Assembly (NCBI GenBank): GCA_020350825.1
Contig: CP070724.1
Coordinates: forward strand, 1,523,922-1,587,921
Length of the DNA: 64,000 nt
Direction: 5' to 3'
Source: Thermoplasmatales archaeon
Lineage (GTDB): Archaea; Thermoplasmatota; E2; DHVEG-1
Positions 4,718-55,314 of the stretch are shown here, in pieces. Each line of letters begins with the position of its first letter. The first letter of the stretch is position 1. Under the pieces are notes generated by a model. The model saw only the letters and a list, made by a program, of their open reading frames with translations, was not told the origin of the DNA and made no database searches. A program made the position numbers and the translations under genes.

Positions 4718-7081
4718 CTAGAGTCCTAGGAGGTTTCTGAGTATTGGAAATGCCCTTGGGAATCGCTCTAAAAACCTTAGGAACAATGAGTTTATTAATA
4801 CCTTGTTTCTTGGCATGGTTACTTCAAGTGTACCCCAGTTACTTTCTTCATCAAATATATCTTTAGCTTTTGCTTTGATTATGTAGGTTTTCTTTTCATC
4901 CCAGGTATGTGTAAGGATAACTTCTTCACCAGAACCAAAATAGTCTGTCCACTCAGTATTGCCGTCATCCCAGTCTATAAAGTATTTGACATTGTCCTCA
5001 TTTGGATCAGTTGACACGAAGGTATATTCATATGTCGTCCCTATGTTCCCATTAATTGTACCGTTTATATTTGGAGTATTTGGTGGATCATTTTCAATAA
5101 TGCTGACTTTCATATCTTCAAGCGTACTGAAATCTCCCCAGCCATGTTCAGCGTTATAACCTTTTACTTGATAATAGTAAGTTCCCTCAGGTTTGCCATT
5201 CACCTCGTAATAGGGATCTATGATATTATCTGAAAGGGTTGTTATTGATGCAAAATCGGCTATAGGTAAAATATCATCAACATAGAAACCTTCCTCTTGG
5301 GTATTTTGATCAGTCGTATATCTGAAACGTATGAAGACAGATTCGCCAACATAGCCATCTAAAGCATATTCCTCATAGGACCATCCACCTGATGAACCAG
5401 TGAATGTATCAAGTACTTCGTAGTATCTTCCATCTCGGCTTACTTCAACGAATGCGTAGTCCCATTCTAATTCGATATTGTACCAACACCAGAATGATAA
5501 TTTCATTCCAGATGTAACTGGTAATGGAGTAACAGTTGTCATAGATGAAACATCCTCGTTATTATGACGGGATTTGTAACTATGACTAGACGAATGAAAC
5601 CTTGATGTTGAAAGTGAGAATCCATCAAGTGCCCATGAATCTGAACCATATTCAGCATCATCAGTAATAAGAGATAGGTTAGTTAGCTCATCAAGTTGAA
5701 AATAATCCGGTTCTGCATCAGGATTTTGTTCCTCCCAAGAGATTGTATAGTTTCCATCTGGATCTGTATTCATTTCATCGATAACAGGAGTTATCACTCT
5801 TGGTACTACCGTGTTTCGGATATTTCCAGCTTCTTCAAGGATAAATAATGCACCATCAAAGTTTTCAGCACAAATCTGATCAAGATAACTCTCAGATGGA
5901 TGGTATGAGGAACATGCCTCAATGGTATATGCAAAGGTTGTTCGCCCCTGGATATAATGACCATATCCATATGCCCAATCTGTTGTATCTCCTGTGGTAC
6001 CATATAGGGTACAAGCTTGTTGGGGTGTATAGGTTCCTGATCCACTCTGTCGTGTTATTCGAGAAGCAATCTGCTGTCCAACTTGAGATATGTAAGTAGC
6101 ATCAGGGGCAGAACTAGGAGCATAACCCCACGGCCACAAGACAAGCTGACCATGAGTATGCCATGTAATAACAGCACATATGTCGTTCTGAAGAAATACA
6201 TCACGTATCGCTTGTGTTTCAAGCTCAGATTCAGGTCCAGGGCCACAATAGGTACTATAATCTGAGTTATGAGTAACAGAACCCGGACCAATTGATCCCC
6301 AAGCTCCCCAGGGATCTCCATTACTTGAGCCACCATAATTACGGTTATTATCAACACCATAAGTATCAAACTCCGGGAAATAAAACCGGTTCTTCCGCCA
6401 GTCATTTCCCTGATCATGGCAATAATAGTAACCATCAGGATTAACACAAGTAACAAGCCATAAACGCCGGTTATTTACTATATCAGTAATATCGGGATCC
6501 AACCCATATTTTGATGTGAGTTCATCTGCGATATGTAGGCAAATCTCAACAGTTGGCCATTCACGAGCATGATGTAGTCCCATAAAAAAGACGCCTGGTT
6601 CTCCTTCATCAACACCGGGATTATCAGTGATTTCTAAACACCAAATATCGCGCCCTTCAAAAGTTGTCCCTATACTATAAAGACTAGTGATACTAGGATA
6701 AGTACTTGCAATATTACTTAAAATATACTCAATCTCAGTAAGTGTATGATACTGGCCAGCAACACTTTGGCTATAAGCATCTACATCCCAAATAAGAATA
6801 GAATAATTAATTTTTAAGTTTGCAAGTTCATTGAGTCTGATCCGAGGAATAATAATATCAATCCATTCACCTGGTCTGCCTCCAACTGCTTCTACACCTC
6901 GTGGAATTAAAAAAGTTTCTTCTGTTGTATCGATTCTCACTAAAACATTAGTGAAAAATGGGTGGTAACTTAATTTATCTATAATCATTGATTCAGATGG
7001 TTGTTTCTTGCTTCCAATTACTGTTATAGAAATAGATATTAACAACGCAAAAATCAAAATGCAAATTAGTTTGGTTTTCAT
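4718..7081 (-). CDS. Secreted M14 zinc carboxypeptidase, multidomain, with LLGL-type C-terminal tail
   Basis: A large exported metallocarboxypeptidase. After a signal peptide (KLICILIFALLISISITVIG) comes an M14 domain at about residues 105-415. The zinc ligands are seen in HHAREWPTVE and WHTHGQ, the substrate-binding Asn-Arg in GVDNNRNYG and the catalytic Glu in AYTIEAC, so it should be active. A beta-sandwich of the immune-inhibitor/MAM type follows (about 470-610), then a fibronectin-like stretch and a PKD-like domain (YEYTFVSTDPNEDNVKYFIDWDDG). The protein ends in LFLRFLE..P..FPILR.LLGL, shared with the protein at 8474-10390. The ATG at 7081 is preferred over one at 7090 because GTGAT is properly spaced only from it. 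It probably scavenges amino acids from proteins outside the cell. Confidence 0.92.
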   Translation of the reverse strand: MKTKLICILIFALLISISITVIGSKKQPSESMIIDKLSYHPFFTNVLVRIDTTEETFLIPRGVEAVGGRPGEWIDIIIPRIRLNELANLKINYSILIWDVDAYSQSVAGQYHTLTEIEYILSNIASTYPSITSLYSIGTTFEGRDIWCLEITDNPGVDEGEPGVFFMGLHHAREWPTVEICLHIADELTSKYGLDPDITDIVNNRRLWLVTCVNPDGYYYCHDQGNDWRKNRFYFPEFDTYGVDNNRNYGGSSNGDPWGAWGSIGPGSVTHNSDYSTYCGPGPESELETQAIRDVFLQNDICAVITWHTHGQLVLWPWGYAPSSAPDATYISQVGQQIASRITRQSGSGTYTPQQACTLYGTTGDTTDWAYGYGHYIQGRTTFAYTIEACSSYHPSESYLDQICAENFDGALFILEEAGNIRNTVVPRVITPVIDEMNTDPDGNYTISWEEQNPDAEPDYFQLDELTNLSLITDDAEYGSDSWALDGFSLSTSRFHSSSHSYKSRHNNEDVSSMTTVTPLPVTSGMKLSFWCWYNIELEWDYAFVEVSRDGRYYEVLDTFTGSSGGWSYEEYALDGYVGESVFIRFRYTTDQNTQEEGFYVDDILPIADFASITTLSDNIIDPYYEVNGKPEGTYYYQVKGYNAEHGWGDFSTLEDMKVSIIENDPPNTPNINGTINGNIGTTYEYTFVSTDPNEDNVKYFIDWDDGNTEWTDYFGSGEEVILTHTWDEKKTYIIKAKAKDIFDEESNWGTLEVTMPRNKVLINSLFLRFLERFPRAFPILRNLLGL

Positions 7082-7367
7082 AGCTATCATATCACAACAA
7101 TTCTATTATACTAAATGTTGTATATATATATACTTTATTGTAATAAAAATCTTCCCTAATTTAGGAATGCCCTCCGATTTGACACCTTGAATCCTCTAGA
7201 ATAACAAATTACTCAACAGTTTTACAGTCTGAAAGGGGTGCTGCCAAGTCATTATTCTACAAATTATTAATAAGAAAAATATATTTACTGTTTTGTATCT
7301 ACAATAAATAAAATTGATAATAAACGAATATTTAATCTAAAGGGATTATCAATGGTATAATATTTTT

Positions 7368-8228
7368 TTATAAACGATTTGTGGATATTAGCTCTCCACG
7401 GATATTACCATTTGGCATATTAAATTCAATCTTAACAAGGTTCCCAACAGAAGGTGCATAATAATATTCAAAGAAATCCCCAATTATCGGGCGAATTCTA
7501 TATGCACTAAATATTCCTGCTGCGACAGCTATATCTTGCTTACCCTCACATTCAAATATTACCAAGGGGTAGTTACTATTGAAGTTAATTGGAATTTTAA
7601 TAAGTCCAAAAATACCACCAATAGTTAAGTCCATATTCGCATTCAAATTTAATATAAACCAACTCTGAGTTGGCTCTACCAACGGAAAATCAAATATAGG
7701 AATATCTTTATTAAAATCAGTTTCAAATGTTAATTTAAATGGAATTGGTAGAGGTATAGGGATAGGATAAATCTTAGCCACGCTTATTCCCTTTATTTCA
7801 GCAGAAATATCTACAATTTCCAAATCAGATTTGGTGAAAGTAATAGTCCCTGTAATACGAGTTAATGCAGATTTAAATGTTCCATTAATCCCTAATGTCA
7901 TAGAGGATAAAGGGAGACGGATTTCATATTCAGCAGTAGGTTTACCTCTAAAATCTACCTTATAATTACTTCCGCTAGTGTCTGTGACAGCCCATTTAAA
8001 GTCATCTATATTTCCATCCATAAATATCTTTTGACCGCCAACATTGTAATCAATGTTAATTTCATCTAATCTATATGTCCAGCTATCATCTTTATTCCAA
8101 CTAGGAACGTCATCGTTAATCATAATAGTTTCGTTCGATATCTGTTTAATCTCAATTGGTTCAGCTACAGATGAAATACTTAACATCAGTATCATACAAG
8201 TCATAATTCCCAGGATTTTAATTTTCAT
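7368..8228 (-). CDS. Secreted protein of unknown function
   Basis: About 286 aa starting at MKIKILGIMTCMILMLSISSVAEP, a clear signal peptide. AGGTG seven bases before this ATG decides the start over an upstream in-frame codon. The mature part is beta-rich, with alternating polar and hydrophobic strands and the phrase PSWNKDDSWTYRLDEINIDY, which is seen in archaeal exported proteins of unknown role. There are no catalytic motifs, no transmembrane segment apart from the signal, and no LLGL tail. It lies between two other large exported proteins. Function unknown. Confidence 0.7.
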   Translation of the reverse strand: MKIKILGIMTCMILMLSISSVAEPIEIKQISNETIMINDDVPSWNKDDSWTYRLDEINIDYNVGGQKIFMDGNIDDFKWAVTDTSGSNYKVDFRGKPTAEYEIRLPLSSMTLGINGTFKSALTRITGTITFTKSDLEIVDISAEIKGISVAKIYPIPIPLPIPFKLTFETDFNKDIPIFDFPLVEPTQSWFILNLNANMDLTIGGIFGLIKIPINFNSNYPLVIFECEGKQDIAVAAGIFSAYRIRPIIGDFFEYYYAPSVGNLVKIEFNMPNGNIRGELISTNRL

Positions 8229-8473
8229 AATCTTACACCTTGTATTGTTAATTATAGATATGTCTATATAAATATATGGAACGAATGATATCAATTATAA
8301 CTATTGTAATTGAGCTTATATTTCTTAAGAGAAGAATAGGGCTATAATAAATGTTGTAGAAGTGAAACCAGAATTTGGGATTGAAAATTGTTTCAGAAAG
8401 TATATTTAAAAGGAAATGTTTAAATAAAATTATTGTATTGTAATTTATAGATTTAAATTTCGGGAGGAAAAAA

Positions 8474-10390
8474 ATGAAAAAGAAAATATTAGTTATAATT
8501 GGTATAGCAATACTATTGTTTGGAGCTAGTGTCGTACCAAACATAAGTGGAAATATTGAAAAAGTTAGTAATGATAAAGAAGCAGCTCTACAGAAGCAGG
8601 TGGCAGGACAGAGTGGCACAGACGTTCTAATTGATCCTGATCCGACAAATATATTACAAAATGAGATATCTTTAGATCTTATTCCAGGTTCACCAGGTTC
8701 ACCAACTTTACTGGTTGCTGCTTATAATGACGATCCATATGCTGGTGGTCCAGGGCTTGGTGTAAGTTATAGTACAGATGCTGGAATGACTTGGACTGCA
8801 ACTCAACTTCAGTATCCAATGAATACCATTACTGGTTTGCTTATGGATGATATGTTTGATCCTACTGTTACAATTGATACCCTAGGAAATGTATTTGTTG
8901 GACAAATATCTTCAGATATAAATTGGTACAGCGGTATGTATGTTCATAAGTCAACTACCGGGGGTGTAACCTGGCTCCCACCAGTGAATATTGCTTTAGA
9001 TATTCCACCTCAATCTAATCCAGATCCAAACTTCCGATTTAATGATAGATGTCAGATAAAAGCGGATACTTATACATCTAGTCCATACACTGATAATATT
9101 TATGTGACATGGTTAAAAGATCGTGGATTTAACATGCCGCTACCAACTGGTGATATATATTTTTCATACTCGACTGATAATGGTAATACCTTCAGTGTAC
9201 CTATAACAATTAACTCATTTGCTAATGATCTTGCTAATATGCCAAATCCAGCAGTAGCTTCTGATGGAACTGTATATGTATCATGGCTGCATTATAATGT
9301 ATGGACAGGAGGAATTGGCACTATATTTTTAGATGTATCTACCAATGGTGGTGTAACTTGGGGACCAGATATTACTGTTGCTACAATAAATCTGCCACCA
9401 TTATCTCTAACCACTGGTGCTGGTCAACCCGATGTTGTATCTAAAGGAGCCCCTGTGTTAGAAGTTTCACCAAATAATCCAAATGAGCTTTATATTACAT
9501 ATGCAGCAGATCCTGACGGAGGTGGACCCGATGAATGTGATATCTTCTTTATTCGATCTACAAATGGAGGGGGTGTTTGGAGTGCACCTATTCGAGTAAA
9601 TGATGATACAACAACAAATGATCAGCATCTTCCATGGATGGATGTTAAGCCAGATGGAACAATTGATATTGCATGGTATGACCGTAGAAATGATGCGAAC
9701 GATAAACTCTGGGATGTATATATTGCTAAAAGCGTTGATGGAGGAATTACCTTTTCAACTAATTATAAAATTAATGACCAAAATTTTGCATCACCAACAA
9801 ACCCATGGGGAACACCTTGGATGGGGGAATATCTAGGTCTTGCATGTGATAGTAGTTGGGCTCATATTGTATTTACCTCATCAATATCAGATGTTTTAGG
9901 TGATGTATATTATGATAATATGGATAACGACGACATGGTAGTTCCACAAGCTGCAATAGACTGCGATGGTGACCTAACATGGACTGGAGTTAAACCAGGG
10001 GCAACAGTAACTGATAGTTTTAATGTATCAAACATTGGCGATCCAGGTTCGGAGCTTGACTGGGATATCACAGAATGGCCAGACTGGGGATCATGGACGT
10101 TTAATCCTTCAGGTGGCACTGCATTAAAACCTGAAGACGGACCAGTTACTGTACAGGTAACTGTTGTTGCACCCCAAGGGGTACCTAGAGTTTTACTACA
10201 ACCCAAAGATACAACGTATACTGGGACGGTAAAAGTAGTCAATTTAGATGATCCTAGTGACTTCTGCATCATAGATGTATCTCTTACAACACCGAAAAAC
10301 AAAGCATTTAACATAAACATGTTATTCCTAAGATTCCTAGAGCAACATCCAAATATATTTCCAATTCTAAGACAACTATTAGGACTATAA
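8474..10390 (+). CDS. Secreted BNR/sialidase-like beta-propeller protein with LLGL-type tail
   Basis: A 638-aa exported protein. The signal peptide is residues 1-30 (KKKILVIIGIAILLFGASVVPNISG). Residues 60-500 carry repeated Asp-box-like units (SYSTDAGMTWTA, HKSTTGGVTWLPP, SYSTDNGNTFSVP, DVSTNGGVTWGPD, RSTNGGGVWSAP, KSVDGGITFSTN), as in sialidase-type six-bladed propellers. Sialidase catalytic residues were not located, so a binding or other hydrolytic role is possible. A beta-sandwich domain (CDGDLTWTGVKPGATVTDSF, about 505-600) precedes the C-terminal tail LFLRFLE..P..FPILR.LLGL. GGGAGG six to seven bases before the ATG supports the start. A T-rich stretch at about 10406-10420 may be a terminator. 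Confidence 0.85.
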   Translation: MKKKILVIIGIAILLFGASVVPNISGNIEKVSNDKEAALQKQVAGQSGTDVLIDPDPTNILQNEISLDLIPGSPGSPTLLVAAYNDDPYAGGPGLGVSYSTDAGMTWTATQLQYPMNTITGLLMDDMFDPTVTIDTLGNVFVGQISSDINWYSGMYVHKSTTGGVTWLPPVNIALDIPPQSNPDPNFRFNDRCQIKADTYTSSPYTDNIYVTWLKDRGFNMPLPTGDIYFSYSTDNGNTFSVPITINSFANDLANMPNPAVASDGTVYVSWLHYNVWTGGIGTIFLDVSTNGGVTWGPDITVATINLPPLSLTTGAGQPDVVSKGAPVLEVSPNNPNELYITYAADPDGGGPDECDIFFIRSTNGGGVWSAPIRVNDDTTTNDQHLPWMDVKPDGTIDIAWYDRRNDANDKLWDVYIAKSVDGGITFSTNYKINDQNFASPTNPWGTPWMGEYLGLACDSSWAHIVFTSSISDVLGDVYYDNMDNDDMVVPQAAIDCDGDLTWTGVKPGATVTDSFNVSNIGDPGSELDWDITEWPDWGSWTFNPSGGTALKPEDGPVTVQVTVVAPQGVPRVLLQPKDTTYTGTVKVVNLDDPSDFCIIDVSLTTPKNKAFNINMLFLRFLEQHPNIFPILRQLLGL

Positions 10391-15378: not shown

Positions 15379-16467
15379 ATGGAAAAATTAAAATTACAAT
15401 TAGTCGCATTGTTTTTCTTTTTTATTCTGTTATTCAGTGGAATAACTGTTGGAGGTTTGAATCAGAAGGATAATATTAACCTAGAAAGTGATGAACGGTT
15501 TTTTTATACCGGCGAAAAAATTTCTGATAACTTCTATTTTGTTCATATCACTGATACACATTTATTACATAGATTATTTGACAGAAATGAAACAAGTAAG
15601 AAGAGACTCGATTCTGTTTTAAAGTATATCATCTCGTTTGATGAGAAGCCGACATTTGTAGTAATTACTGGAGACCTCGTAGAATGGGGGAGTGGTATTT
15701 CTGGTTCTATGAATTACAGAACTCTGATGAAATGCTTCTATGAAAAGGATAACCAGTATTATGCTGATTCAAATTATTCTATCCCAGTTTATTTTACTCC
15801 AGGTAACCATGATTATTATTTTGATTGGAATTTGATAAATTACCATAGATTTGTAGATAGAAATCATGTTCTTGAGAATGATCGTTATGTTGTAAATTAC
15901 GAGAATTTAACTCTTTTTTTCGTAGATTCTGGTAGTCATTTTATTTTAAGACCAAAAGAGTGGTTAGATGTTTTTGGCAGTGGTCTTACCAATCGAGATA
16001 TCAGATGGCTTGAAGATGTTCTGAGCAGTTATAGTTCCAGACATAAAATCATACTTATGCATTTTCCAGCTATCAATTGGAGAGATGAGAATGGTGAGAT
16101 GAATGGGGTTATTGTTCGTAATAGAGAATTATTTGTAGAGTTATGTGAAGAATATGAAGTTGATCTTGTTTTAGTGGGACATACACATAGTTCTGTGGTT
16201 ATTGATAGCGATGAGAATGTGTATGATGATCTTCCTTTGAATTGTAGTCAGTATCCTCCTCTTCATGTACAAACCGATGACTGTAAGCAGGGTTGCCATT
16301 ATAGGAACATTACGGTTTTAGGAGATGATATTTGGTTAGATAATTGTATGGAGATTCAGGTAGCTTCTGTAAACCTTAAAAGTACTGACATATGGTCTAA
16401 CTCCTTGGAAAGATTTCAGCTGGTAAATACCAAAAAACTTATTCACATACGCACCTCACAACAATGA
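15379..16467 (+). CDS. Membrane-anchored metallophosphoesterase
   Basis: A 362-aa calcineurin-like phosphoesterase. An N-terminal hydrophobic segment (LQLVALFFFFILLFSGITVGG) anchors or exports it. The metal-binding motifs appear in order: HITDTHL (about 57), VITGDLVEWGS (95), TPGNHDYY (143), ILMHFP (220) and VGHTHS (265), so the di-metal site is complete. Three cysteines after residue 290 may form disulfides, fitting an extracellular domain. Substrate unknown; nucleotides or phosphodiesters are usual. ATG follows a TTTATATTT stretch; no SD is seen. Divergent from the radical SAM gene. Confidence 0.85.
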   Translation: MEKLKLQLVALFFFFILLFSGITVGGLNQKDNINLESDERFFYTGEKISDNFYFVHITDTHLLHRLFDRNETSKKRLDSVLKYIISFDEKPTFVVITGDLVEWGSGISGSMNYRTLMKCFYEKDNQYYADSNYSIPVYFTPGNHDYYFDWNLINYHRFVDRNHVLENDRYVVNYENLTLFFVDSGSHFILRPKEWLDVFGSGLTNRDIRWLEDVLSSYSSRHKIILMHFPAINWRDENGEMNGVIVRNRELFVELCEEYEVDLVLVGHTHSSVVIDSDENVYDDLPLNCSQYPPLHVQTDDCKQGCHYRNITVLGDDIWLDNCMEIQVASVNLKSTDIWSNSLERFQLVNTKKLIHIRTSQQ

Positions 16468-40851: not shown

Positions 40852-42288
40852 ATGAAATCTAAAATGAGAACTATTTCATTGATTATAGCATTGATAATGT
40901 TGTTATTAATAATTGATATTGCATCATCAAGTTGGATAATAAATAAACAATCTATTGATTCTACTTCATTTATAAAGATGCCAGAGAATTTAAGGATCGG
41001 CGATCTTCTATTTATTGAGAGTATTGCATTTTTTCATAATATTCGTGATTCTTGGGATCATGTTGCTATATATATTGGAAATAACATGTTTGTCGAAGCA
41101 AATAATTACACCACTTTACCACTCCCTTTTAAAGGCAAAGCAGGAATTCAAATTACACCTTTATTAAAATATAAGTTTTGGACTCAATATTATGCGTTTG
41201 GAAAGGTAAATGCCAACGAATCTCAAAGGCTTGCAGCTGTAAACTGGGCATTGTCATTAGTAGATATTGCAGGATATCAAGTCAGTTGGGATGGAGGTAG
41301 CTGGTGGGCAAATCCTGATCCAAATGATAAAAACGATCCAAATTCCAATAACTTTTATTGCGCTGAGTTAGTATGGGCTTCATATTATAACACATCCAAT
41401 GGAACTATCGATTTAGACATATCACCTGGTCCATTACTTCCACCTAGAGGAGATGGAATCCATTTAGCTGTAAGCCCAAAAGCAATTGCCAGATGCGTAA
41501 ATGTATCAATGTATACTGAAGAAGGAGCTCCATCAGCTCCTACGAAACCTAAAGGTGATCTCACAAATGTAACTATACCTCAGTTTGGAACATATTCTAC
41601 TACTTCCACAAATATTCAAACTAGAGGTATGTTTTATCAGTGGGTTTGGGGTGACTACTATCGACCTACCCGATGGGTTTTTATTCCTAGATTTCTAGAC
41701 AATGTTATAACCGCTAAGCATCTGTGGCTTAGAATAAATATCCATGATAGATTTGATAAAAACTACGCATTTGATGTACGAGTCAGGTGCAAAGATATAT
41801 TTGGGAGAATAAGCAACTGGTCTAATCCTTTACCAGTAGATGTGACACCTAATTTTGTAGAAGGAAATTGGATTTCACCTACAGGTTACATAGATTCATC
41901 AAGTTGGCAATATGAAAAAAAAACATATGATAATAAGCCTTATCTTACTTCCTCTATTTATAGAAAAATCAGTGATAACGAATGGTGTGATGAACCTCTC
42001 ATTTTAACACTTGACATCCCAACCATGATTAAGGGTTTTAGAATTCGTTCTAATAAGGGAATATTCCACGAAAAGATGGAAATAAAATTCTATAATGGTA
42101 CTAACCTTGTTAAAACATGTACTTTTACTAGCTGGCCACATTTACGTTGGAAAAACGTTGATTTCCATAGATATAAATATATAATGGATAAAGTTGAGAT
42201 TTATTTTCTTATGAAAGATTCATTATTTCGATTAGGATTCTATGCTCATCCTATTTATGTTTACGAGTTTTATTTCCAACAATCCTGA
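40852..42288 (+). CDS. Exported YiiX-like permuted NlpC/P60 cysteine hydrolase
   Basis: A 478-aa protein with an N-terminal hydrophobic signal (ISLIIALIMLLLIIDIASSS). Residues 45-215 match the circularly permuted papain-like fold: LRIGDLLFIES, SWDHVAIYIGNNMFVEAN with the catalytic His, and later NFYCAELVWASYYN with the Cys. His before Cys is the permuted order. The remaining 250 residues are beta-rich with many Trp/Tyr and probably bind a polymer or surface. Targets could be peptides, amide bonds in wall polymers or lipids; archaea lack murein. Single gene. Confidence 0.72.
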   Translation: MKSKMRTISLIIALIMLLLIIDIASSSWIINKQSIDSTSFIKMPENLRIGDLLFIESIAFFHNIRDSWDHVAIYIGNNMFVEANNYTTLPLPFKGKAGIQITPLLKYKFWTQYYAFGKVNANESQRLAAVNWALSLVDIAGYQVSWDGGSWWANPDPNDKNDPNSNNFYCAELVWASYYNTSNGTIDLDISPGPLLPPRGDGIHLAVSPKAIARCVNVSMYTEEGAPSAPTKPKGDLTNVTIPQFGTYSTTSTNIQTRGMFYQWVWGDYYRPTRWVFIPRFLDNVITAKHLWLRINIHDRFDKNYAFDVRVRCKDIFGRISNWSNPLPVDVTPNFVEGNWISPTGYIDSSSWQYEKKTYDNKPYLTSSIYRKISDNEWCDEPLILTLDIPTMIKGFRIRSNKGIFHEKMEIKFYNGTNLVKTCTFTSWPHLRWKNVDFHRYKYIMDKVEIYFLMKDSLFRLGFYAHPIYVYEFYFQQS

Positions 42289-53244: not shown

Positions 53245-55314
53245 TCAGGGTAATTCAAAATCCGTATTTTTAAAAAATGTAAAATCTAGATTGTTCCAAT
53301 CATCAAAATCTCCTTTACCATGAGAACCATCTGAATAATTAATTATTGAGTATGTATATCGATAGTTCATGCAACTTTTATAGTTTCGATATTTCAACCA
53401 TTGTCTGGTAAACAGTTTTGCTGCAATCATGTTGTCATTACCTCCATGGTCGTCAACAGTTAATCCAAAAGTATGTCCCAACTCGTGTAATGCACCTGCA
53501 ACTATCAATCGTCCTCTACTAAATATTGGTGAATCCTCTTGGAGTGTTTGTGCCGATATTTGAAAGGAATCAAGATGATTCCATCCTACAAAGGTAAAAC
53601 CTGGTCCAGCTCCATAGTCACACACCAGGCAGTAATGGAAAATTCCCTTCCTCGGATTATTTAGGTTATTATGCAGAAAGTATTCCCAGTAAATATCGCG
53701 GAGATCTGCATAAGAAAAATGCGTACCATATAAAATCTCTTCTCCTCCTTCCAGATTGCCGAGGTCAACATGAAGCGAAATATTTTGTTTCTCAAATACC
53801 GCTATCATTTTATCCACATAATAATCTGGAGGTTTATTGGAAGCATTATTTTGATTTTTTGCTATCACCCAATCAAACTCTAAAAATATGTCTTTATGAA
53901 ATGGATTTGATCCGTAATCGTCGGTATAGCATTCTTCAATGTTGTTCAAACCATCCTTATCAGGGTCAAGGTTTTTATGATCATTCCAAGAATTTGGTTC
54001 ATACCCCCATTTTTCCTCCCACCAATCTGGAACATGATCATTATCACTATCTATTCCTAGAAGTTCTATTTCAACATATCGAGAATTGTTAATTTCAACA
54101 TTGAACAATCCATAATCTATTTCCCAACTTGTACCAGCAGTATCAACTTTTTGCAATAGCCATGGAAAAACGGTTACGCGACCAAATTTCATAAGTATTT
54201 TATCTTTTGATTCCCGATCAAATAATGCCGGTCCAAAAGGTGAACCCCACCAGTTATACCTTACATCACATATTGAATGTATAGAATATAGTCCACAAAT
54301 AGAACTGTGAATATTGTTGTTCAGTAATCTAAATTTACTGTTTTTTACTTGTATTCCCAATCTTAAGTTTTCTGATAAATCACATTGTTCAACCATTATG
54401 TTTTCCGAATTTTTATTTACGTTAATTGCAAAATGTGTGTTCCAAAACAAATTACAGTTTGAGATGTATATAGTTGAACTATTCGAAATTTTAATTCCAA
54501 ATCCATTGTGATTAACATTACAATCGGAAATATTGATATTACTACAATAACTTAAGAAAAAACCACCTTGATTGTCATTATTGTTATATGCAGCACATCT
54601 TATCGATTCGATATTTGAAGAGTTATTAAAGAAGTAAGCAATGCCATTTGTGTGTGCATAACAACCGATAATTTTGATTTCATCAGAACTTCCAAGATTT
54701 AGTCCGATTCCATTATGACAAAAATAGCAATCACTGATTTTGCTGCTGTGTGATGATTTAAGATATATGCCCTCTCCATTAGTATGAAAGGTGCAGTTAT
54801 TTATTTCATTATAATAGGTCTCATTTACGTATATACCAGTTTTTGTCCTGTAAAAAATACATTCTGTTATTTGGTTATTCTCCGAATCAAGTTTTATGCC
54901 AGCGTTATGCATATATCCCCCAGAGTTTCTAATTGTAAAATTATGTACATTTACATGATCTGCAATTAGATAGACAACAAATTCTTTGTAAGTTCCATCT
55001 ATAATTGTACTGCTTTTATTCTCACCAATTATTGAAAGAGATTTGTCAACTACAACATTCTCATGATATATTCCGTTGAAAACGTAAACAACATCTCCTT
55101 CAGTTGCATTCTCAATGGCGTCTTGAATATGCTGGAAGGGGTGTGTCTGCGATCCATTCCATGGTCCACCCGTATTATTGCCATCAACGTATATCATTTT
55201 TCTGTTGATTACATCATTTGTTGTTTCAACCTGTTCGCCTATACTATTGATTACAGAAATATTAGTAAGTAAAAATAGTAGGATTATAATTAATGAGACG
55301 GATTTTTTTTTCAT
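53245..55314 (-). CDS. Secreted beta-helix protein with a C-terminal zinc metalloprotease motif
   Basis: A 689-aa exported protein. Signal peptide SVSLIIILLFLLTNISVINS. Residues 50-360 form a right-handed parallel beta-helix of NosD/PbH1 type with many short repeats (NxxISDCxxxxNGxGI). Residues 415-475 hold Ca-binding type Asp-rich loops (IDSDNDHVPDWWEEKWG, NLDPDKDGLNNIEE). The last 200 residues contain LHELGHTFGLTVDDHGG, an HExxHxxG zinc motif with a later His that fits a metzincin-like protease. Whether this is a genuine protease or a degenerate one is not certain. Probably cell-surface or extracellular. Confidence 0.8.
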   Translation of the reverse strand: MKKKSVSLIIILLFLLTNISVINSIGEQVETTNDVINRKMIYVDGNNTGGPWNGSQTHPFQHIQDAIENATEGDVVYVFNGIYHENVVVDKSLSIIGENKSSTIIDGTYKEFVVYLIADHVNVHNFTIRNSGGYMHNAGIKLDSENNQITECIFYRTKTGIYVNETYYNEINNCTFHTNGEGIYLKSSHSSKISDCYFCHNGIGLNLGSSDEIKIIGCYAHTNGIAYFFNNSSNIESIRCAAYNNNDNQGGFFLSYCSNINISDCNVNHNGFGIKISNSSTIYISNCNLFWNTHFAINVNKNSENIMVEQCDLSENLRLGIQVKNSKFRLLNNNIHSSICGLYSIHSICDVRYNWWGSPFGPALFDRESKDKILMKFGRVTVFPWLLQKVDTAGTSWEIDYGLFNVEINNSRYVEIELLGIDSDNDHVPDWWEEKWGYEPNSWNDHKNLDPDKDGLNNIEECYTDDYGSNPFHKDIFLEFDWVIAKNQNNASNKPPDYYVDKMIAVFEKQNISLHVDLGNLEGGEEILYGTHFSYADLRDIYWEYFLHNNLNNPRKGIFHYCLVCDYGAGPGFTFVGWNHLDSFQISAQTLQEDSPIFSRGRLIVAGALHELGHTFGLTVDDHGGNDNMIAAKLFTRQWLKYRNYKSCMNYRYTYSIINYSDGSHGKGDFDDWNNLDFTFFKNTDFELP

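Follow-up and report, generated by a model that had tools for sequence, protein, structure and literature searches.

A C-terminal tail shared by unrelated exported proteins of a Thermoplasmatota family: a possible docking tag

Why should two secreted proteins of quite different domain make-up end in nearly the same residues? The question is raised by a stretch of 64,000 nucleotides, called the window below, from contig CP070724.1 of an uncultured Thermoplasmatales archaeon living in sediment (assembly GCA_020350825.1, genome label G000). This genome is a metagenome-assembled genome (MAG) of 2.32 Mb in one contig, 89% complete, with joins marked by runs of N. A preliminary description had proposed that an M14 carboxypeptidase and a BNR-repeat propeller protein in the window share an amphipathic tail that serves for sorting, anchoring or secretion. 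The open reading frames (ORFs) lie at the positions given there and do carry near-identical tails, the carboxypeptidase ending in MPRNKVLINSLFLRFLERFPRAFPILRNLLGL and the BNR-repeat protein in TPKNKAFNINMLFLRFLEQHPNIFPILRQLLGL, and their domains indeed differ, with Pfam giving M14, an InhA-like MAM domain and a weak PKD match for the former and BNR_2 for the latter. The M14 protein consists, in order, of signal peptide, pro-region, M14 domain, InhA-like MAM domain, PKD-like domain, hinge and tail (Table 1). As shown below, the preliminary description recognized the right kind of element, a C-terminal tag, and was too modest about its extent.

With the BNR tail as query against its own genome, the M14 tail is found at E = 4.8e-8, and 58 places, mostly at the ends of long ORFs, match at E ≤ 10. 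A profile built from 25 rows of tails yields 71 places (the E-values are per genome, and the genome was read in stretches around the matches). In view of these numbers, the tail is due neither to chance nor to a duplication giving just two copies, which the preliminary description had allowed for. At the extreme C-terminus of ca 40 intact proteins the tail has the consensus P[KR]NK..(N).LFLRFLE..P..FPILR.LLGL (type I), while ca 12 further proteins have a longer form (type II, ..FLQFLERLIQRFPLLE.. or ..LFLQFLERLIQRFPVLE..); in all, it closes no fewer than 50 exported proteins of this genome that are otherwise unrelated. The two types open alike, with a P-[KR]-N-[KRQ] hinge followed by an LF-L-x-F-L-[EQ] helix. 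The position is also strict: among 41 tails of the genome picked by regular expression, the LGL triplet is the exact C-terminus in 35 and lies one residue before it in 5, and in the tails of relatives the chain stops exactly at LGL in 62 cases, one residue later in 10 and two residues later in 1.

The tail is essentially confined to proteins with a signal peptide. Using a simple and lenient score, based on N-terminal charge and a hydrophobic core, a signal peptide is called in 40 of the 41 assessable tail proteins of the genome, the exception being an ORF of 291 residues without its N-terminal part; the same score is positive in 12 of the 42 other genes of the window, polytopic membrane proteins among them. 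The relatives are consistent with this, as 59 of 70 tail proteins with a readable 5' region score positive and the remaining 11 are masked, truncated, gap-joined or have a start codon outside the set allowed by the script. Tails on cytosolic proteins, named in the preliminary description as evidence that would speak against a tag, were encountered only as ORFs joined through 100-N scaffold gaps. Namely, a dehydrogenase-like N-terminus (L149:2951-4099, CP070712.1) is connected to a tail domain through ca 100 N, and the membrane-protein N-terminus at 602402 is separated from its tail by a string of N as long as a scaffold gap. Chimeric ORFs of the L149 kind can enter databases as real proteins.

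Since the tail is missing from the products of at least five other genes of the window that begin with a signal-like segment (840-1544, 7368-8294, 15379-16467, 40852-42288 and 53245-55314), it marks a subset of the exported proteins. This subset is diverse: 48 tail proteins contain 42 Pfam families, including PKD, Peptidase_C25, Peptidase_C1, M14, PAD_porph, PQQ/BamB-like propellers, NosD, FG-GAP, CBM96 and lectin-like domains. NCBIfam adds choice-of-anchor J in 4 of them and choice-of-anchor D in 2; choice-of-anchor domains are named for standing before different anchors. The tail itself is matched by none of these libraries. Two consensus tails retrieved nothing from NCBIfam and one chance match to Vps26 from Pfam (E = 0.15), the PDB search with the tail profile gave nothing (best E 0.54), and a literature search for the tail letters returned accidental matches only. 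We regard the tail as previously undescribed and outside the Pfam, NCBIfam and PDB families.

Most tails are preceded by one of two unrelated immunoglobulin-like (Ig-like) domains, which end in ..LEVTMP- and ..IDVSLTTP-, respectively. It could thus be argued that the tail has no function of its own and is simply the end of these domains, having travelled with them. The observed modularity makes this very improbable. Every tail subtype is found after both domain types, one of which occurs in alignment A5 with HP-type, WLFERFP-type and type II tails, and the subtypes also follow other folds and contexts that are neither Ig-like domain, for example at 1653224 (..SVDVWLLKTDKRG..), 246045 (..YDFVLAPRNK) and L123 (..FITYWQKPRNR). 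The tail is, moreover, modelled as a separate helical element, and its core is better conserved than the domain before it. When M14 orthologues from three congeners (G208, G258 and G146) are compared, identity is 95-100% over the 22-residue core, 66-89% over the PKD domain and 45-82% over the linker; G129, a more distant congener, has values of 73% for the core and 49% for the PKD domain.

At the codon level, the proportion of synonymous differences in the 15-codon tail core is 0.57 and that of nonsynonymous differences 0.25. The invariant arginine is encoded by AGG, AGA and CGA, and F, P, R, L and G are fixed despite the synonymous differences. It is therefore the tail peptide that is under selection. 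An element acting at the DNA level was considered and rejected, because a repeat found downstream of many tail genes is a promoter motif of the next gene and the tail codons diverge synonymously.

The distribution of the tail was determined in 293 genomes of the phylum, 45 of them from the same family, counting tails at E ≤ 1e-4. It is present in 39 of the 45 family genomes and in one genome elsewhere (G228, from another family of the class), in which one tail is clearly of type I and one resembles type II, both belonging to proteins with a signal peptide and a PKD-like end. The family consists of SG8-52-type Thermoplasmatota and, judging from the SG8-52 names, would correspond to MBG-D/Thermoprofundales. 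When 257 gigabases of GTDB genomes were scanned for the pattern, 100 places were confirmed; the 79 distinct loci listed from them all belong to MAGs of Thermoplasmatales, Thermoplasmata or Thermoplasmatota, SG8-52-3 included. With the type II profile, matches are obtained in most genomes of the family and in few outside it; as the beta strand before the tail is part of this profile, weak matches may be to the domain.

Within the family, the FPILR.LLGL consensus is retained in several genera. The M14 orthologues of other genera have either a degenerate tail (g5, g13 and g17; ..PRKITINSILIRFLEKITEQLPLIKQLI..) or unrelated C-terminal ends (g2, g3, g4 and g19). Most PKD proteins of G094 and G108, which are tail-poor (no type I match), and of G123 (12 matches) have extensions of 17-30 residues that are hydrophobic, aromatic and cationic, with no fixed sequence, and in G132 several PKD proteins stop directly after the domain. 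Hence not even orthologues all depend on sequence-specific recognition. Generic extensions occur widely across the family, and selection maintains the strict consensus in several genera, the present one among them.

Structures were modelled with AlphaFold2 for a PKD domain with its tail (34 sequences) and for the second Ig-like domain with its tail (23 sequences). In both models a beta sandwich of high confidence is followed by a loose hinge and by two short helices with a proline turn between them, the helices spanning residues 105-114 and 118-126 in the PKD context and 126-135 and 139-146 in the other. The tail is short, aromatic and hydrophobic. Its best 19-residue Kyte-Doolittle average, with a mean of 0.59, is too low for a classical transmembrane span, and the Wimley-White partition is favourable, with a mean best 19-residue octanol sum of -6.7 kcal/mol. 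Together with the absence of a basic end, the chain closing in ..LGL, the low hydropathy agrees with the earlier statement that this is not a signal of the PGF-CTERM or LPXTG type.

On this basis we tentatively favour the tail being an uncleaved docking or retention (sorting) tag of Sec-exported proteins in one sediment Thermoplasmatota family, over a cleaved sorting signal, a module for complex assembly or a receptor-free anchor. The N-terminal signal peptide would bring about the export of the protein, whose last Ig-like domain, PKD-like or of the second type, would then present the short P-x-N-K hinge, followed by the helix-turn-helix with its free ..LGL carboxyl terminus. This hairpin would dock non-covalently on the cell envelope, probably through a receptor, and hydrolytic enzymes and adhesive propellers would be kept on the cell instead of being lost to the sediment. 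Since P, R and G are fixed, as is the distance to the C-terminus, a dedicated receptor is suggested rather than simple partition into lipid, and the aromatic and hydrophobic composition would speak for docking at the membrane interface. The surface location, the docking, the lack of cleavage and the existence of a receptor are what we infer. A more specific proposal, to which we attach somewhat less weight, is that surface display in MBG-D relies on the uncleaved FPILR.LLGL hairpin and a receptor unrelated to sortase, archaeosortase or rhombosortase, and that the main extracellular peptidases are displayed in this way.

Several observations weigh against the docking tag. The tail helices are modelled at moderate confidence only (pLDDT, the predicted local distance difference test, of 56-76). 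The amphipathic character attributed to the tail in the preliminary description is not borne out, as only 2 of 25 tails have an 11-residue hydrophobic moment above that of composition shuffles (p < 0.1). In tail-poor genera, the same PKD proteins have at their C-terminus either the generic hydrophobic, cationic extensions described above or nothing. Finally, clustering of 731 neighbourhood ORFs from 120 stretches revealed no receptor and no partner gene at most tail loci; the only recurrent groups are a small secreted family with the motif SPLF..R..RAI (16 ORFs at 13 loci) and a mixed cluster of secreted proteins. Of the proposal that the tail serves for sorting, anchoring or secretion, the part that stands is thus the C-terminal tag of exported proteins; neither a receptor nor a processing enzyme that would point to one of the three roles was found.

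Another option considered was that the tail is a cleaved sorting signal, a peptidase or transpeptidase comparable to PorU, GPI8 or archaeosortase cutting near P-x-N|K and attaching the protein to a lipid or glycan. Such a scheme would fit the conservation of P-x-N-K where the last folded domain gives way to the hydrophobic tail, the strict C-terminal position, the many targets per genome and the divergent single-copy rhomboid of the genus. However, the tail lacks both a basic end and a full hydrophobic span, among congeners the linker is less conserved than the rest, and three candidate enzymes do not follow the tail. Archaeosortase (PF09721, E ≤ 0.01) has no match in this genome, which is 89% complete, or in five other tail-rich ones (G129, G208, G258, G154 and G246), and occurs in 22 of the 45 family genomes with no clear relation to tail number. 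Sortase (PF04203) is found in 0 of the 45, with positive controls, and the legumain-type C13 peptidase (PF01650) is patchy, occurring in 19 of 45 and missing from the tail-rich G129, G154, G181 and G246. These three were rejected as partners of the tail. The rhomboid does not appear to track it, being near-universal, with one copy in 39 of 45 family genomes, tail-less ones included, and in all controls (the rhombosortase model itself was not run). We therefore consider cleavage unlikely.

Two further schemes appear less likely still, to about the same degree. In one, enzymes would be assembled through tails binding to one another or to a scaffold, as dockerins bind to cohesins. One tail common to many hydrolases, propellers and carbohydrate-binding proteins, with fixed polar residues, could be read in this way, but the sequence lacks the calcium-binding repeats of dockerins, and the neighbourhoods read showed no evident scaffold bearing repeats of a partner domain, the whole genome not having been searched for one. 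In the other, any short aromatic, hydrophobic and cationic extension would suffice as a receptor-free anchor at the membrane interface, and the consensus would reflect recent spread by recombination. The favourable partition values, the repeated near-identical copies in the genome and the similarly long generic extensions that follow the same domain in sister genera all argue for this. It is at odds, however, with residues that stay fixed despite synonymous divergence and with a consensus retained across several genera.

It is instructive to compare the tail with known systems. Like the PGF-CTERM and PEF-CTERM signals of archaeosortases, it is C-terminal and found on many secreted archaeal proteins, with many targets per genome; unlike them, it has no long transmembrane span or basic C-terminal end, in a genome where archaeosortase was not found, and no CTERM model is among the NCBIfam families listed for the 48 tail proteins. 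LPXTG signals are likewise C-terminal tags on exported proteins, but the tail has no LPXTG-like motif and no span plus basic end, in line with the absence of PF04203 from the family genomes. The C-terminal domain (CTD) of type IX secretion in Bacteroidota resembles the tail in being a module common to various surface enzymes, among them gingipain-like (C25) peptidases and PAD-like proteins. That CTD is a folded beta domain of at least 70 residues, whereas the tail has ca 33 residues, is predicted to be helical and belongs to an archaeal host. A type IX CTD model is not among the NCBIfam matches listed for the 48 tail proteins (25 of 30 families), and the PorU matches in tail proteins are presumably C25 peptidase domains. 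The choice-of-anchor J and D domains, as expected companions of an anchoring signal, lie within some tail proteins, but they precede the tail and are not part of it. Short C-terminal signals with many targets, like the tail, are also those of the GlyGly-CTERM/rhombosortase (PMC3237569) and MYXO-CTERM/myxosortase (PMC11980579) systems; the tail differs from them in having no invariant Cys or Gly-Gly and no tripartite architecture, and no rhomboid occurs besides the near-universal one present in single copy.

Table 1. Features of the two tailed genes of the window (positions counted from its first nucleotide).
Feature	Position	Strand	Basis
Secreted M14 zinc carboxypeptidase with tail, 790 residues	4718..7090	-	ORF reading, Pfam, orthologue comparison
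PKD-like Ig domain before the tail, M14 protein	4820..5089	-	Weak PKD_4 match; homologous domains modelled as beta sandwich, pLDDT ca 97
Hinge/linker PRNKVLINS, M14 protein	4787..4813	-	Sequence; congener linkers 45-82% identical vs core 73-100%
Tail core LFLRFLERFPRAFPILRNLLGL up to the stop codon, M14 protein	4721..4786	-	ORF reading, alignment, orthologues
Secreted BNR-repeat propeller protein with tail, 638 residues	8474..10390	+	ORF reading, Pfam
Second Ig-like domain, unrelated to the PKD-like one, before the tail (..IDVSLTT-PKNK), BNR protein	9941..10291	+	Alignment A5; AlphaFold2 beta strands
Hinge/linker PKNKAFNINM, BNR protein	10292..10321	+	Sequence, alignments
Tail core LFLRFLEQHPNIFPILRQLLGL up to the stop codon, BNR protein	10322..10387	+	ORF reading, genome search, alignment, AlphaFold2 model

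A few further observations were made along the way. The untailed secreted protein encoded between the two tailed genes (7368-8294, minus strand) has a close homologue adjoining the tailed BNR orthologue of a relative (L101), and the neighbourhood is hence conserved. Isolated tail fragments, interrupted or closely preceded by stop codons (G000:C1:1403105, 1763754, 794283, 2031244, 634611 and 1317754), have a DNA stretch in common (AATCATCCACGGATGTTTCCAATA..) and look like the remains of dead genes; the DNA downstream of the one at 1317754 is common to a live gene ending at 276569. The SPLF family mentioned above comprises proteins of ca 200 residues near tail genes, in which the signal peptide is followed by the motif (A)SPLF.[VI]R..RAI and the C-terminus is hydrophobic (for example L086:4347-5019, L078:6664-7270 and L068:5452-6040). 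A second recurrent C-terminal module, ..GFG.T.ITVTA......(A)F.LLFFI.V.PGGG, occurs on secreted proteins of the same genomes (L100:3891-6528, minus strand; L110:1-1132; L259) and is possibly a different type of anchor. A dispersed promoter element, GTTACAGATGTTGCA, has 54 sites in the genome within 3 mismatches, compared to 0 for the reversed control (for example G000:C1:1817945-1817964 and 392172-392191). It lies ca 20 bases upstream of a TTTAAA TATA-like box and ca 75-90 bases upstream of the start codon, and the genes downstream, where readable, mostly encode signal-peptide proteins. It looks like the mark of a regulon of secreted proteins that overlaps in part with the tailed set.

Whether enzymes are kept on the cell or lost to the sediment decides who gains from the digestion. 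A tag defined by its sequence on C25, C1 and M14 peptidases makes this question of retention testable. It also allows surface proteins to be listed from genomes alone, and it points to a sorting or anchoring machinery outside the current family libraries.

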